Source: Akkermansia muciniphila
GTDB lineage: Bacteria > Verrucomicrobiota > Verrucomicrobiia > Limisphaerales > UBA11320
DNA: 35,953 nt
Assembly (NCBI GenBank): GCA_945861575.1
Contig: CAMAVD010000020.1
Coordinates: forward strand, 1 to 35,953
Reading direction: 5' to 3'
Shown: positions 21,762-26,446 of the stretch, one piece after another
Layout of the letters: each line of letters opens with the position of its first letter
How positions within the stretch are numbered: position 1 is the first letter of the stretch
Program-made: the position numbers and the translations under genes
Notes under the pieces: generated by a model
The model's database searches: none
The model's input: the letters and a program-made list of their open reading frames with translations, nothing else
What the model was told of the DNA's origin: nothing

Positions 21762-22160
21762 CTACTCTCTCCATCGCAAACGCGCAGGAGTCCGACTCCG
21801 GCGCGTATCGCTTGGATCAGTCCAATCGACCAGAAGGCGATGAAGTTCGAAGTGACTGGCGGGCGCGGACGGGTTGCCCTTATTGACCCACATCTCCAAG
21901 TCAGCGGAAACGATCACAGCGCTCCGGGGGATCGCAGCCGCTAGGTCGAAGCGCAGAAGCACACGCGTGGCTCCCTGGAACGAAGTGCCGCCCGAGGCAA
22001 TGTTTGTAGATGCGCCCAAATTGTTGTTGGGAAACCCGGCCATAATCCCGGCGTCGGCTATGGGTCTCAGGGACAAAGTGGCTGCAGCACCATCCGGCAA
22101 CACAGCTAGCAGGAATGTGAGGATGCAAGCGAGAGCGGCAGAGGAGGTGAGCAAGTTCAT
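21762..22160 (-). pseudogene. Truncated DNRLRE-domain secreted protein, coupled to zur
   Basis: A frame of 132 residues whose ATG overlaps the zur stop (ATGA at 22160-22157). It begins with a signal peptide (SAALACILTFLLAVLPDGAA) and then the first half of a DNRLRE/CBM96-like beta domain: LRPIADAGIMAGFPNNNLGA, TRVLLRFDLAAAIP and FELHRLLVDW. The family normally continues with a glycine-rich loop, a conserved TW segment and 60 or more further residues; here the frame turns into SDTRRSRTPARLRWRE and stops. I looked in the two other frames for about 150 bases downstream and found no continuation. Either a decayed remnant or a genuinely short form kept by the operon. Confidence 0.6.
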
Positions 22161-22636
22161 GGTTTGGGCACAGAAGATTTTTGACAGGCGGGACAAATCC
22201 CGAAGAACTCCAGACGATGGGTCACGGAGCGAAAGCCGCTGGCCTTTTCAATCCGGCGCTCCACCTCCAGCAGCAGGCAGTCATCCAACTGCATCACCGC
22301 ATGACAGGCTTCACAGACCAGGTGATGGTGGTGCTCCCTCCCCTCGTCGGTAACAAGTTCGAACCGTGAGCCACCCTTACCAAACTCAACCCGCCGGACC
22401 ATGCCCATCTTCTGGAGCGTTTTCATGGATCGGTACACCGTCACCAAATCGCAGTCTCCCTCAGCGAGCAAGGCATGAAGCTCCTTGATCAAGAGGGGAT
22501 GCGGATGATGTCGCATCGCCTCTAGAATGGCCTGCCGTGGCCCCGTGATTTTTAGGGACTCCTTCCGAAGCTTTGCCGTAAGGGTCGGAAGCTCGACATG
22601 GCTTCCATGGCAACAACCCGTGGAGCGCGGCTTCAT
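22157..22636 (-). CDS. zur: Fur-family metalloregulator, probably Zur
   Basis: Product of 159 residues. ATG 22636 overlaps the znuB stop (ATGA); the frame is open upstream but only as shadow of znuB. The winged helix is LTAKLRKESLKITGPRQAIL...CDLVTVYRSMKTLQKMGMV. The metal/dimerisation domain has REHHHHLVCEACHAV (His102-105, Cys108, Cys111), and GICPACQ (Cys148, Cys151), so both structural CxxC pairs are present. Fur and Zur are hard to tell apart by sequence; location inside the znuACB operon makes Zur the best call. It would repress zinc uptake when zinc is plentiful and probably acts on the inverted repeats before znuA. Confidence 0.85.
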   Translation of the reverse strand: MKPRSTGCCHGSHVELPTLTAKLRKESLKITGPRQAILEAMRHHPHPLLIKELHALLAEGDCDLVTVYRSMKTLQKMGMVRRVEFGKGGSRFELVTDEGREHHHHLVCEACHAVMQLDDCLLLEVERRIEKASGFRSVTHRLEFFGICPACQKSSVPKP

Positions 22637-23478
22637 GAAGCCCTCCCTTCTCTTCCGGAAGCGTGCCCAGCGCGGCTCCTCAATCGGGCGACAACGAGGG
22701 TAACAGCGAAGACTCCGATGGCGGTCAAAACGATCGTAGGGCCCGCAGGGATATCGTACCGATCCGTCAGGGATACGCCACCGACACCACTGATCAAACC
22801 GACCGCTAGAGCGAAAAGTATCTGCTGCCGGAGACTGCAGGCGACATTGCGAGCCGCCGCCGCAGGAATGATGATCAGAGCCGTCACCAACATCACGCCT
22901 AGCAGGCGGATACTCACCGAAACGGCGACGGTCAGAACGCCAACGAAGAAATAGTTTAACCACTGGACGTTCACCCCGGCGACATGCGCCAGATCCTCCT
23001 GAGCGGAAAGGAGGGTAAGGGAGTTCAGCTTCCAGAAAACACACAGCCCGATTCCTACTGAGAGCACAGCGGCCGCGATCAATTCCTCATCACTGACGGC
23101 CTGGATATCGCCAAAGAGGTAGGCGTCAAACTGAGCTCGGAAGCCCTTGAGCTGAGAGCGAATCAGCAGACCGAAAGCCACAGAGCCCGAAAGAAGCAGC
23201 GCCATGATCGTGTCCGTAAGAAGAGCCGTTGTTTCCTTCAGCCAAAGAATCGCCACAGCGACTCCTAGGCTGAAAAGAATCATCGGAATGGTCGGCTCAC
23301 TGAAGCCAAGCCAGAATCCCAGTGCCACTCCAGCCAGCGCCGAATGGGCAACCGTATCGCTAAAGAACGACATGCGCCGGGCCGTGACGAAAACGCCCAG
23401 AAGCGAGCAAAGGGGAGCGAGACACAGCGCTGCCGCCATGGCTCGCACCAGATAGATGTTGTCACTAAACCATTCCAT
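22633..23478 (-). CDS. znuB: Zinc ABC transporter permease ZnuB
   Basis: Product of 281 residues with about eight hydrophobic segments. ABC-3 family motifs: GVFVTARRMSFFSDTVAHSA, ALGFWLGFSEPTIP, FGDIQAVSDEEL and RLLGVMLVTALIIIPAAAAR. It forms the membrane channel for zinc delivered by ZnuA and powered by ZnuC. The start ATG 23478 lies 14 bases inside the end of znuC, and the stop overlaps zur, so translation is coupled throughout. A manganese or iron substrate is possible for this family, but the context points to zinc. Confidence 0.92.
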   Translation of the reverse strand: MEWFSDNIYLVRAMAAALCLAPLCSLLGVFVTARRMSFFSDTVAHSALAGVALGFWLGFSEPTIPMILFSLGVAVAILWLKETTALLTDTIMALLLSGSVAFGLLIRSQLKGFRAQFDAYLFGDIQAVSDEELIAAAVLSVGIGLCVFWKLNSLTLLSAQEDLAHVAGVNVQWLNYFFVGVLTVAVSVSIRLLGVMLVTALIIIPAAAARNVACSLRQQILFALAVGLISGVGGVSLTDRYDIPAGPTIVLTAIGVFAVTLVVARLRSRAGHASGREGRAS

Positions 23479-24280
23479 GTGAGTGCCCGGGGACAGAAGG
23501 GTCGTGATGGTGATGGTGGTAGGGCGAAACGTGGATGCCGTAGGCCTGCTTTAGAGACTCGGCATTCATGACATGTTCCGGGGTTCCTTCACAGCAAACC
23601 ACTCCATTCAGGGCATAGACCCAGGAGGCATGCCTGAAAACCATCGAGAGATCATGGGAGACCAAGACCACGGTCAGTTTTCTCTCCCTATGGATCTGGG
23701 CGATCAACTCGTAAAAGCTCTTCTCACCCGGTGTGTCGACTCCGGCAGTAGGCTCGTCCAGCAGCAGCAGTTCCGGATCTCCCAACAGACTGAAAGCGAT
23801 TAAAACGCGCTGAAGCTGGCCCCCGCTGAGGCCGGAAAGCGGCCGATCCAAAATCCCACGCACCCCGATGTCCGGAAGATGTCCAACCAGCTCGCTGTCC
23901 ACGGAGGTCCGACTTTTCCAGAACCAGTTGCGGGTCTGACGGAGCCGAAGCGCCAGGAATTCGCGAACCGTGATCATGAAGCTTCGTTCCAAGGAAAGCT
24001 TCTGGGGAACATAGCCCACCCGGGGTAGGACTTGATCAAGCCGTCCGTTGCCAAGGAGGCGACTGGTGCCGCGGTCGGGTTGTTGAAGTCCCAACATACA
24101 GCGAAGCAGCGTCGTCTTGCCCGAACCATTCGGCCCAATCAACGCTACCAATTGCCCTACTGGAATCTTCAGACTCACTCCTCTCAGCACCGGGACCTGA
24201 CCAAAGGAGAGCCAGAGATCATTCACTTCCACCGCCAGAGGAAGGCCCGAGGGCTGATGCTTGCAGAGCGGACAATCCAT
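23465..24280 (-). CDS. znuC: Zinc ABC transporter ATP-binding protein ZnuC
   Basis: Product of 271 residues. ATPase motifs: Walker A GPNGSGKT (49-56), Q-loop YVPQK, signature LSGGQLQRV, Walker B LLLLDEPTAGVD and the switch His in VLVSHD. Two features hint at metal binding: an N-terminal extension MDCPLCKH with a CxxC pair, and a His-rich C-terminus (YHHHHHD, then HSHG). It starts five bases after znuA. It energises ZnuB at the inner face of the membrane. Confidence 0.93.
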   Translation of the reverse strand: MDCPLCKHQPSGLPLAVEVNDLWLSFGQVPVLRGVSLKIPVGQLVALIGPNGSGKTTLLRCMLGLQQPDRGTSRLLGNGRLDQVLPRVGYVPQKLSLERSFMITVREFLALRLRQTRNWFWKSRTSVDSELVGHLPDIGVRGILDRPLSGLSGGQLQRVLIAFSLLGDPELLLLDEPTAGVDTPGEKSFYELIAQIHRERKLTVVLVSHDLSMVFRHASWVYALNGVVCCEGTPEHVMNAESLKQAYGIHVSPYHHHHHDPSVPGHSHGMV

Positions 24281-24285
24281 TGAGG

Positions 24286-25260
24286 CTATTTCAGATGGGT
24301 GGTCAGCACTTCCAGATTGGCCCGCATCGCGTCCTCATAGGCCTGAGGCCGCAGTCCTTTGGAATCCGCTGTCTCTAAGGTATCCAGAAATGCGAGCGGC
24401 ACCCCCGTATCCGCCGAGAGTTGCTGAGCGATCTTTTTCGGAAACTGTGGTTCTGCAAAAATCACCCGCACGGAGCTTTTCTGGATCAGACGTCGCAAGG
24501 CCCCCTGGTACTTGATGCTTGGCGCCACCTCAGGGGTCGTTTCGATGACCCCGACTGCATTCAATTGGTAACGCTTAGCCAAATAGACGAAGGCATCGTG
24601 ATAGGTGATGAACGGAACCTGGGCTGAGGAGGCGAGGCGAGTGCGGTAGTCCCTATCTATCGCCATCAAACGTTCGATAAAGACCGCTCCATTACTCCCA
24701 TAGCCGTGCGCGTTAGCAGGATCAGCCGCCTGGAAGGCCCGCACGACGTTGGTGACCATACGGATGGCAAGCTGGGGATCGAGCCAAACATGAGGATTGG
24801 CGTCCCCGGCATGGGAGTGCGCGTGACCACCCGCATCGTCGAGGTGCAACGCCGGGACCTCTCGGATCAGAGCCTCACCGAAGCCCTCAGAGGCTTCAAC
24901 CACTTTGAGAGCCTTGGGTCCCTTCCGTGACTTTACCATTCGAAAAACCCAATCCTCCAGCTTCAGACCATTCACCAGCAGTAGGTCAGCCTTGCGGATC
25001 TTTTCGAAATCACTCCGAACAGGCTGATAGTCGTGAGGCCCCACATTGCCCGGCAGGAGATTCTGCACCGTCGCCAGACCTCCCGCGACATTGACCGCGA
25101 AACAGTAGAGCGGCATGAAACTGGTCAGGACCGTCAGCCGAGGCTCAGGTCCGTCTGCGGCTCCAAGCCGCACTCCGACCACCCAACACGCAACCAGGAA
25201 CGAGCGAAGTCCCCTAGCCCAGCCACAACTACTTCCCGCGCTTTTCCTCATAATGCTCAT
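24286..25260 (-). CDS. znuA: Zinc ABC transporter substrate-binding protein ZnuA
   Basis: Product of 324 residues from ATG 25260, chosen because AAGGTGAT lies just before it; ATG 25251 and an upstream open frame are alternatives. A signal peptide (GLRSFLVACWVVGVRLGAA) leads to the cluster A-I binding-protein fold. Likely metal ligands are His76 (GPHDYQP), His157 (NPHVWLDP), His221 (TYHDAF) and Asp293 (FLDTLE). A short His-rich loop (GGHAHSHAGD, 145-152) between the first and second ligand is the feature that marks zinc-type members. First gene of znuACB-zur; it is preceded by a promoter carrying inverted repeats. Confidence 0.93.
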   Translation of the reverse strand: MSIMRKSAGSSCGWARGLRSFLVACWVVGVRLGAADGPEPRLTVLTSFMPLYCFAVNVAGGLATVQNLLPGNVGPHDYQPVRSDFEKIRKADLLLVNGLKLEDWVFRMVKSRKGPKALKVVEASEGFGEALIREVPALHLDDAGGHAHSHAGDANPHVWLDPQLAIRMVTNVVRAFQAADPANAHGYGSNGAVFIERLMAIDRDYRTRLASSAQVPFITYHDAFVYLAKRYQLNAVGVIETTPEVAPSIKYQGALRRLIQKSSVRVIFAEPQFPKKIAQQLSADTGVPLAFLDTLETADSKGLRPQAYEDAMRANLEVLTTHLK

Positions 25261-25303
25261 CGAGATCACCTTTCCGTGGGCCGCCTGCGCCACAGGCATG
25301 GTC

Positions 25304-25352
25304 ACTATCCACCGAATTGAAGCTTTTGCAAATGGTTTGCAGTGGGTGGATA
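25304..25352 (-). promoter_or_regulatory. znuA promoter with nested inverted repeats, candidate Zur operator
   Basis: A perfect TGCAAA-TGG-TTTGCA palindrome occupies 25327-25341. On the minus strand TTGCAA (25331-25326), 16 bases, then GATAGT (25309-25304) make a plausible promoter, with the -35 inside the palindrome. An outer perfect 8-base repeat, TATCCACC (25306-25313) and GGTGGATA (25345-25352), brackets it. The 15-base palindrome has the size and symmetry of Fur-family boxes, though its sequence is not one of the consensus boxes I know. Binding there would block the -35 element. Confidence 0.6.
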
Positions 25353-25353
25353 C

Positions 25354-25378
25354 AAAAAACCCGCAAGTAACTTGCGGG
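25354..25378 (-). terminator. Rho-independent terminator after rpsR
   Basis: An 8-base-pair perfect stem (25360-25367 with 25371-25378) and a three-base loop are followed by six T on the minus strand, 27 bases after the rpsR stop. It separates the dksA-rpmG-rpsR unit from znuA. Confidence 0.92.
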
Positions 25379-25405
25379 CCCGGTAGAACCGGCGGGGACG
25401 CGCGA

Positions 25406-25669
25406 TTAGCGCATCAAGAGCATCTGGCGCGCGCGCTTGATAGCGCGGTTCAGAGCACGTTGGTAGTGGGCAGGAAGCCCGGTGTATTTGCGGGGCAGGA
25501 TACGACCCTGGTCCGTCACGAACTGGCGGAGCAATGTGGTATTCTTGAAGTCCAGGGCGTCGACGGTGAAGTCGATTTTGGGCTTCGGACGCGGCGTGCG
25601 CTTTTCCATGGGGCCACGACCACCGCGGCCAGCGCGGTCCTTTTTCTCTGTATGAGTCTTGCGAGGCAT
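25406..25669 (-). CDS. rpsR: 30S ribosomal protein S18, cysteine-free form
   Basis: Product of 87 residues. S18 motifs: FKNTTLLRQFVTDQGRILPR, KYTGLPAHYQRALNRAIKRA and RQMLLM at the end; the N-terminal 30 residues are a basic, low-complexity tail. There is no cysteine, so this is a C-minus type without the zinc ribbon of C-plus S18 proteins. In actinobacteria C-minus S18 copies are Zur-regulated substitutes; in many other bacteria the C-minus form is the only one. It begins six bases after rpmG and ends just before a terminator. Confidence 0.95.
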   Translation of the reverse strand: MPRKTHTEKKDRAGRGGRGPMEKRTPRPKPKIDFTVDALDFKNTTLLRQFVTDQGRILPRKYTGLPAHYQRALNRAIKRARQMLLMR

Positions 25670-25675
25670 AGGGGC

Positions 25676-25843
25676 TTACTTGATTTCGCGGTGGACAGTA
25701 TGCCGCCGCAAAAACGGATTATACTTCTTGATCTCGATCTTCTCGGTCTGAAGCTTCTTGTTCCGCGTGGTTGTGTAGCGGGACGGAGGTTTTCCCTCCT
25801 TGCGAGCTTCAGTACATTCAATGGTCACTATTTCTCGGGGCAT
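25676..25843 (-). CDS. rpmG: 50S ribosomal protein L33, zinc-ribbon-less form
   Basis: Product of 55 residues, [17 protein letters not shown] followed by [20 protein letters not shown] and [15 protein letters not shown]. The fold-defining residues of L33 are kept, but of the four zinc ligands of C-plus L33 only Cys10 remains: the expected CxxC at 10-13 is CTEA, and the second CxxC at 42-45 is NPFL. It starts three bases after the DksA-like gene stop and ends six bases before rpsR, so the three are one transcription unit. Confidence 0.95.
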
Positions 25844-25846
25844 AAA

Positions 25847-26446
25847 TCACTCTTTCTCTTTCGCCGGCTTCTCTTCCACTTCATCATCGTCGTCGATTTC
25901 AATCGGCGCCGCACTTTCGTCAACCGTCCTCAGACTCCCGAGCTTTCGAGCGCGCAGGACTCCCTCTTTCTCGAGTTGCGCCTGGGCTTCCACCGTGAAC
26001 CTCGTCCAAGGGATCGCCTCAAGGCGAGCCTTGGGAATCGACTTGGAAGTCAACTCACAGGTCCCGTATGTCCCCTTCTCAATCCGCTTCAACGCCTCTT
26101 CAATCTCGTAGACAGCGTCTTGGTCGGAGGACAAAAGACTCAGGGCAAAGTCCCTGTCGAAATTGTCCGTACCCGAATCGGCCATGTGCAGACTGTAATT
26201 GTCCATCTCTGCAGCCGATTCCTTCGCTAAGCCGCTCATCTGATGCGTAAGGCGGTCGCGCAAATCCATCAGATTCTCCTGATATTTCACCCACTCGGGC
26301 TTAATTTTCTTCGGAGGCTCAGAATGGATACCTTTGGCAGCTCTGCCAATAGCGCCGAGAATGGCGGCCGAGGTGGCAACTCCGGCCTTACCCTTCTGCG
26401 CGGCGGGGGCATCCCCCTTCTTCTCGGTCTTTTTCTTATTTGTCAC
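25847..26446 (-). CDS. DksA/TraR-family protein with degenerate zinc finger
   Basis: Product of 199 residues from GTG 26446 (MTNKKKTEKKG). An N-terminal Lys-rich tail leads to a coiled coil (about 50-120; GTDNFDRDFALSLLSSDQD near its tip) and the TraR/DksA finger region (EEALKRIEKGTYGTCELTSK, then PKARLEAIPWTRFTVEAQ). Of the four finger cysteines only Cys130 is left; the others are Thr133, Thr151 and Ala154. The C-terminus is acidic (EIDDDDEVEE). DksA proteins act in the RNA polymerase secondary channel with ppGpp. C-minus forms such as Pseudomonas DksA2 work without zinc. First gene of the unit with rpmG and rpsR. The 238 bases upstream, to glnD, hold no gene and no clear promoter; a GCAGGG-TG-CCCTGC repeat lies near 26614-26628. 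Confidence 0.88.
   Translation of the reverse strand: MTNKKKTEKKGDAPAAQKGKAGVATSAAILGAIGRAAKGIHSEPPKKIKPEWVKYQENLMDLRDRLTHQMSGLAKESAAEMDNYSLHMADSGTDNFDRDFALSLLSSDQDAVYEIEEALKRIEKGTYGTCELTSKSIPKARLEAIPWTRFTVEAQAQLEKEGVLRARKLGSLRTVDESAAPIEIDDDDEVEEKPAKEKE

Follow-up and report, generated by a model that had tools for sequence, protein, structure and literature searches.

Genes for zinc-free forms of usually zinc-binding proteins that lie beside zinc uptake genes raise the question of whether such a neighborhood is a zinc-sparing locus, in which the zinc-free forms are substitutes used under zinc starvation. We addressed this for a stretch of 35,953 nucleotides from Akkermansia muciniphila (GTDB lineage Verrucomicrobiota; Verrucomicrobiia; Limisphaerales; UBA11320), positions 1 to 35,953 of contig CAMAVD010000020.1 in assembly GCA_945861575.1, hereafter called the window; it is one contig of a 5.2-Mb, 377-contig genome. 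All seven genes of the locus are on the minus strand, in the order dksA-like, rpmG (ribosomal protein L33), rpsR (ribosomal protein S18), then znuA, znuC, znuB and a zur/fur gene (Table 1). A preliminary description took the first three genes to encode Zur-controlled zinc-starvation substitutes, with the caveat that they might be the only, constitutive copies. We consider it highly probable that the locus consists of two separate neighboring units: dksA-rpmG-rpsR, holding the sole copies found of these genes, all zinc-free and likely constitutive, and znuA-znuC-znuB-zur, predicted to be Zur-repressed via its own 15-bp operator.

The proposed layout, an operon of the first three genes followed across one terminator by znuA-znuC-znuB-zur, was borne out by coordinates, Pfam matches and alignments, as were the residues reported for the three zinc-free proteins. 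The dksA and rpmG genes are separated by 3 nt and rpmG and rpsR by 6 nt; znuC overlaps znuB, and znuB overlaps zur. All seven proteins exceed their respective Pfam cut-offs, the DksA-like protein through its finger domain, although it stays under the NCBIfam cut-offs (43.3 against 115.5 for TIGR02420, 47.2 against 105 for NF033459, and 76.9 against 134.4 for the yteA model TIGR02890). Its finger keeps one of four cysteines, L33 (CTEA...NPFL) also keeps one, and S18 is cysteine-free; we refer to such forms as C-minus, and to those with their zinc-binding cysteines as C-plus.

The genome yielded one L33, one S18 and one DksA/TraR finger match, all three inside the window; a search for C-plus paralogues of dksA, rpmG and rpsR, the check that the preliminary description had suggested, found neither these nor any other second copies in a genome that is 85.6% complete. 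With this single finger match, the genome does not show the DksA2-type arrangement, a second DksA beside a zinc-finger DksA. L33 was matched in 101 of 116 genomes of the order Limisphaerales, always once (one match being a fragment at a contig end), and in a set of 80 genomes (12 of the order, 68 of other orders or classes) it was present in all and single in 79. A phylum-wide set of 337 genomes gave S18 matches in 334, singly in 332 and twice in G295 and G402. Twelve order genomes were checked for DksA copies; every DksA found in them was zinc-free, and 11 of the genomes had one finger. A hidden four-cysteine DksA in the order was entertained and rejected, the second copy in the sole two-finger genome (G009) being zinc-free as well (CELT...FDAQ). 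Second, four-cysteine DksA/TraR-like proteins occur outside the order in a few genomes (G234, G301). Because these are the sole copies found, the dksA-rpmG-rpsR products are likely made all the time, and zinc-free DksA, L33 and S18 are likely everyday proteins rather than zinc-starvation substitutes, which makes the caveat of the preliminary description its better reading.

Comparison of gene order showed that the grouping at one place is real and recurs across the order. In 100 order loci, that of the window included, dksA lies directly 5' of rpmG-rpsR in 99, the remaining one being cut by a contig end. The slot behind rpsR contains znu genes in 28 loci, a ZIP transporter gene in 31 (26 close, 5 distant) and zur alone in one, while 35 have no same-strand zinc gene within 4.5 kb (3 of the 35 with only 1.5–2.4 kb of sequence); less than 1 kb is left behind rpsR in the other 5, so that 95 slots exceed 1 kb. 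Among the 45 slots with zur, 44 carry znu or ZIP.

Between the rpsR terminator and znuA lies the palindrome TGCAAA-N3-TTTGCA. Within the first 330 bp behind rpsR, sites were scored by how many of the 12 arm bases they matched, and those with at least 11 were counted as boxes. Of the 45 order slots that contain zur, 42 have such a box, whether zur is accompanied by znuACB or by the unrelated ZIP importer, against none of 47 without zur (Fisher p 5e-23; a sign test on six independent pairs from supported branches gave a median p of 0.03, range 0.03–0.06). The 47 zur-less slots comprise 35 without zinc genes and 12 with ZIP only (that of G066 ending soon after ZIP), and the count leaves out three contig-cut znuA slots, all scoring 12/12, and the five short slots. 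The consensus of the 42 boxes is TTGCAAATGATTTGCAA, and in nearly all zur-bearing slots the box lies 43–68 bp past the rpsR stop (233 bp in one). A terminator-like hairpin stands ahead of the box in 36 of 45 loci, versus 1 of 450 shuffles. A second set of 80 named loci came from a DksA-alignment search; 56 were new and two of these lacked rpsR, leaving 54 analysable. Here a box of at least 11/12 was found in 16 of 18 loci with znu and zur, 13 of 14 with ZIP and zur, 4 of 5 with znu and no zur seen, none of 2 with ZIP alone, none of 7 lacking zinc genes, and 2 of 4 too short to class.

Upstream of dksA, no site of at least 11/12 was found within 300 bp, either in 97 genomes (of 99 inspected, 2 are cut) or among the 54 loci of the second set, shuffles behaving alike, and a promoter scan 5' of dksA gave nothing on the dksA strand. 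DNA affinity purification sequencing (DAP-seq) of Clostridium thermocellum placed the Fur_1691 pseudo-palindrome TGCAAATcATTTGCA before the zinc ATP-binding cassette (ABC) operon clo1313_1690-1688, whose zinc response was untested (PMC8457756). Because the same palindrome precedes that zinc importer, the box likely serves the import genes, and not dksA-rpmG-rpsR, as a Zur operator. A site before zepA in verrucomicrobial Luteolibacter has also been likened to the Clostridia zinc site (PMC10957091). It is very likely that the genes of the importer and the Fur-family regulator are one unit under Zur control: the regulator would sense zinc and bind the 15-bp palindrome and, when zinc is sufficient, would sit on the operator and repress the importer and zur itself, while the DksA and ribosomal genes would be expressed constitutively.

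Zur-controlled backups of this kind are known elsewhere (PMC6103462), and the zinc-free residues of the trio, together with its position beside an importer and a regulator, are consistent with the zinc-sparing role first proposed. There is also an arrangement in the phylum that looks like a genuine zinc-sparing locus: G153, a genome of another class, has at L429:7824-9706 a Fur-family gene, a divergent COG0523 GTPase gene and then a C-minus L33 gene, in addition to a C-plus L33 at L224. For the window, however, such a role is extremely unlikely. Second copies were not found in the 85.6% complete genome, no operator was found upstream of dksA, a terminator-like hairpin parts the two units, and the trio stands without zur in 47 of 92 order slots. 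We rejected this claim of the preliminary description because of the copy number and the missing operator upstream of dksA.

Two further features frame the import unit. At its far end, the start given in the preliminary description (21762) falls inside an unrelated DNRLRE-domain fragment, possibly a truncated gene; the genes themselves stood as described. At its near end, a perfect 8-bp inverted repeat (TATCCACC/GGTGGATA) lies either side of the palindrome, at 25306-25313 and 25345-25352.

Table 1. Features of the locus, with positions in the window and the basis of each assignment
Feature	Position	Strand	Basis
dksA/yteA-like gene, 199 residues, finger ligands lost (CELT...TVEA)	25847-26446	-	Pfam PF01258, 29.5 bits; residues, order-wide alignment
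rpmG, ribosomal protein L33, C-minus	25676-25843	-	PF00471, 63 bits; one copy found in genome
rpsR, ribosomal protein S18, C-minus	25406-25669	-	PF01084, 75 bits; one copy found in genome
Terminator-like hairpin and T run, end of dksA-rpmG-rpsR unit	25357-25381	-	Strong, single
Predicted Zur operator, TGCAAATGGTTTGCA, 15-bp palindrome	25327-25341		Sole perfect site in genome; order-wide footprint
znuA, periplasmic zinc-binding protein of ABC importer	24286-25305	-	PF01297, 235.8 bits
znuC, importer ATPase	23465-24280	-	PF00005, 95.4 bits; ZnuC model best, but under its cut-off
znuB, importer permease	22633-23478	-	PF00950 (ABC-3 permease), 206.6 bits
Fur-family regulator, read as Zur	22157-22636	-	PF01475 (FUR), 89.4 bits; only Fur-family match in genome
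DNRLRE-domain fragment, unrelated	21762-22196	-	Overlaps end of zur; covers about the first half of the DNRLRE model

The loss of zinc ligands extends well beyond the window. In the 100 order loci, 99 DksA proteins were read, each with at most one of the four ligand cysteines (C-T-T-A at the four places in 83; two of the 99 are incomplete there), L33 has one cysteine in all 100, and S18 is cysteine-free in 94 and has one cysteine in 6. Other orders of the class were represented by 20 genomes, in which L33 is always C-minus and the DksA finger keeps one to three cysteines; dksA, rpmG and rpsR lie together in 9, dksA lies beside one partner in 3, and the genes are dispersed in 8. Near the 12 clustered loci, no zinc genes were detected with profiles of ZIP, Zur, ZnuA and ZnuB, although distant forms could be missed. 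DksA of other classes (loci L166-L195) ranges from four cysteines through three, two and one to partial or lost fingers; among the 30 best-scoring L33 proteins of other classes, 29 have CxxC and a third cysteine, that of G309 being C-minus, and in the 47 other-class genomes with both genes listed L33 is more than 10 kb from dksA or on a different contig.

Actinobacterial zinc-sparing clusters have the form rpmB-rpmG-rpsN-rpsR, with C-minus rpmG and rpsR together near a zinc importer, and the rpmG-rpsR pairing and importer neighbor seen here resemble them. The trio might accordingly be a relic, a former Zur-controlled backup set that ousted the zinc-binding copies, turned constitutive and kept its zinc neighbors; that 29 of the 30 best-scoring other-class L33 proteins are C-plus and encoded far from dksA or on a different contig would fit such a replacement. 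We regard this history as very improbable, because the other orders of the class have the C-minus genes together (9 of 20, and partly in 3 more) with no zinc gene found nearby, and because the DksA fingers, with one to three cysteines in other orders and one here, suggest gradual decay rather than a wholesale swap. Ligand loss in place, in single-copy genes, fits the pattern better than duplication. As other orders of the class cluster the zinc-free genes without nearby zinc genes, the zinc-free state is very likely older than the zinc neighbors; the ligands would have been lost before the zinc unit moved beside the trio.

The contents of the slot changed repeatedly. A rough tree gave 13 changes of importer type and 22 changes in presence or absence of zinc genes; these counts are rough because the tree is a quick one, built from 342 columns and with 41 of 102 inner branches open, and the well-supported branches require no fewer than 4 changes for each of the two importer labels. 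Within the same genus, the 2 kb behind rpsR in G001 is free of zinc genes, and the znu-zur unit of that genome lies on a different contig. A second, distant ZIP subfamily occupies the slot at L083, L103, L112, L118 and L040, and may be a third importer type swapped into it. Twelve ZIP slots are without zur (L038, L039, L040, L049, L076, L077, L099, L106, L112, L118, L119 and L121), and none of these has a palindrome of at least 11/12, which suggests that zinc import there could be constitutive or differently controlled.

Shared strand, a short gap, and a slot kept or re-filled by unrelated importer types could also point to functional linkage, in which read-through from dksA-rpmG-rpsR, driven by a growth-linked promoter, would keep basal expression of the importer in step with ribosome synthesis, and Zur would repress it in addition. 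This is unlikely given the terminator-like hairpin in 36 of 45 loci, the lack of a zinc gene in 35 of the 95 order slots with more than 1 kb of sequence, and the occurrence of importer-zur units away from the trio. A broader version, which we hold to be rather doubtful, makes the gap behind rpsR a conserved docking slot in Limisphaerales, tied to the growth operon, at which znuACB and ZIP are repeatedly exchanged beside the same zur and operator, basal import following ribosome synthesis and being trimmed by Zur, with ribosome and DksA zinc-free. Why zinc import has repeatedly been placed behind rpsR is a question that our results raise.

The identity of the metal was judged mainly from the importers. 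The preliminary description's name zur rests on context rather than sequence, because the regulator gives no diagnostic match and scores as a general Fur-family protein; its closest solved relatives are called Fur rather than Zur. The best solved relatives of ZnuA are the zinc proteins YcdH and AdcA, with whose histidine ligands PHD, PHVWL and ITYHDAF align, and the alternative importer at the slot is a ZIP transporter, which together with ZnuA points to zinc. An engineered operator with the same core was co-crystallized with Magnetospirillum Fur and manganese (PMC4506495), so that the palindrome alone cannot name the metal. That structure and the naming of the closest solved relatives would also suit an iron or manganese sensor of Fur or Mur type, the importers carrying that metal. 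Such a sensor is nevertheless quite unlikely, since ZnuA is nearest to YcdH and AdcA, since the box also precedes COG0523 GTPase genes and a second znuA in relatives, and since the Clostridium DAP-seq data tie the palindrome to a zinc importer (PMC8457756).

Units and palindromes away from the slot were also sought. Of the 47 order genomes whose slot lacks zur, 45 were searched (all but G064 and G066): a close zur (at least 190 bits) was found elsewhere in 5, only weaker Fur-family matches (at most 89 bits) in 25, and no match at an E-value of 1e-10 in 15. Three importer-zur units lie on other contigs; two of them have a perfect palindrome, before znu in G014 and a distant ZIP in G012, and that of G001 scores 10/12, while the locus in G043 is cut. 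Perfect boxes were searched for in 45 genomes, namely 42 of the 44 relatives with a slot zur (all except G011 and G035) and 3 whose znuA slot is cut by a contig end, and 46 sites were found in 33 of them, versus 6 for the reversed pattern. Nineteen sites, in 17 regions, are away from rpsR. Seven of these regions have a zinc-type or small histidine-rich gene at the box, namely a second znuA with an ATPase gene, COG0523 GTPases, a TonB receptor with a choice-of-anchor M protein, and small histidine-rich proteins; no gene of either sort was seen at the other 10, where most genes were read by eye only. The COG0523 gene of the window's own genome (contig C181) has no site above 9/12 within its 3.3-kb locus.

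Two kinds of protein at these palindromes deserve description. Small, histidine-rich, membrane- or export-like proteins are encoded at a perfect palindrome at L303:4028-4519, L304:3622-4026, L305:4149-4520 and L308:3584-3901; one has a sub-threshold DUF2946 match and three have no Pfam or NCBIfam family, and they are possibly a Zur-controlled family. Choice-of-anchor M/TIGR03769-repeat surface proteins are encoded at L301:2224-3930 and L302:3227-4960, one gene being divergent from a TonB receptor and the other beside COG0523 genes.

Several results weigh against the two-unit reading. Genome completeness is only 85.6%; G234, of another order of the same class, has a four-cysteine DksA/TraR-like protein besides a zinc-free one; and two dksA-rpmG-rpsR-znu-zur loci (L324, L373) lie on two contigs of one named assembly, possibly a mixed bin or a real duplication. 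As to the operator, 12 of the 45 genomes searched have no perfect box, none of the 4 second-set loci with zur but no importer has a box of at least 11/12, the zur that stands alone on another contig in G024 has no good box, and a weaker Zur site upstream of dksA could have been missed by a 12-base match. The regulator, moreover, resembles Fur at least as much as Zur.

For this large order, represented here mainly by metagenomes, the results offer a predicted Zur operator that can be tested, together with an incomplete set of candidate targets (COG0523 GTPases, second znuA, TonB receptor, small histidine-rich proteins). They also carry a warning that C-minus ribosomal proteins beside zur call for a check for C-plus copies and for an operator before a zinc-sparing locus is named. 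The stem "Verrucomicrob" is absent from the main text of a Zur review (PMC6103462), and no description of the rpsR slot was found in the literature searched, most subscription journals being outside its coverage. What is mainly new is the recurrent slot with repeated importer exchange beside zur; both the operator and the C-minus state belong to kinds already known.

The best solved relative of the DksA-like protein is structure 6ptg, "DnaK Suppressor" (96.3 bits), which we take to be the DksA of Chlamydia trachomatis; its finger (CDVS...TVKS) is likewise without the set of zinc ligands. A CxxT and TxxA pattern is also that of DksA2. In Pseudomonas aeruginosa, DksA2 is a zinc-finger-free second copy for zinc starvation beside DksA1 (PMC9213440), whereas the equally finger-free protein here is the sole copy found, with no operator seen. 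Actinobacterial C-minus ribosomal genes are Zur-controlled and have C-plus copies elsewhere (PMC3087516), in contrast to the genome studied here, in which neither was found. In Table 2 of the same paper, no group other than Verrucomicrobiae has all eight zinc ribosomal proteins in C-minus form, and L33 and S18 are listed for this group solely in that form. The window fits that listing, so that the ribosomal part was already known; the table omits DksA, which here has also lost its finger and is tightly clustered with L33 and S18. The import unit has a close parallel in the Clostridium thermocellum Fur_1691 unit, which likewise combines a Fur-family gene, a zinc ABC importer and a 15-bp palindrome, TGCAAATNATTTGCA, upstream of the importer (PMC8457756). 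The unit described here differs from such known Zur-ZnuABC units (PMC6103462, PMC8457756) in standing behind dksA-rpmG-rpsR and in the replacement of znuACB by ZIP, next to the same regulator and operator, in many relatives.

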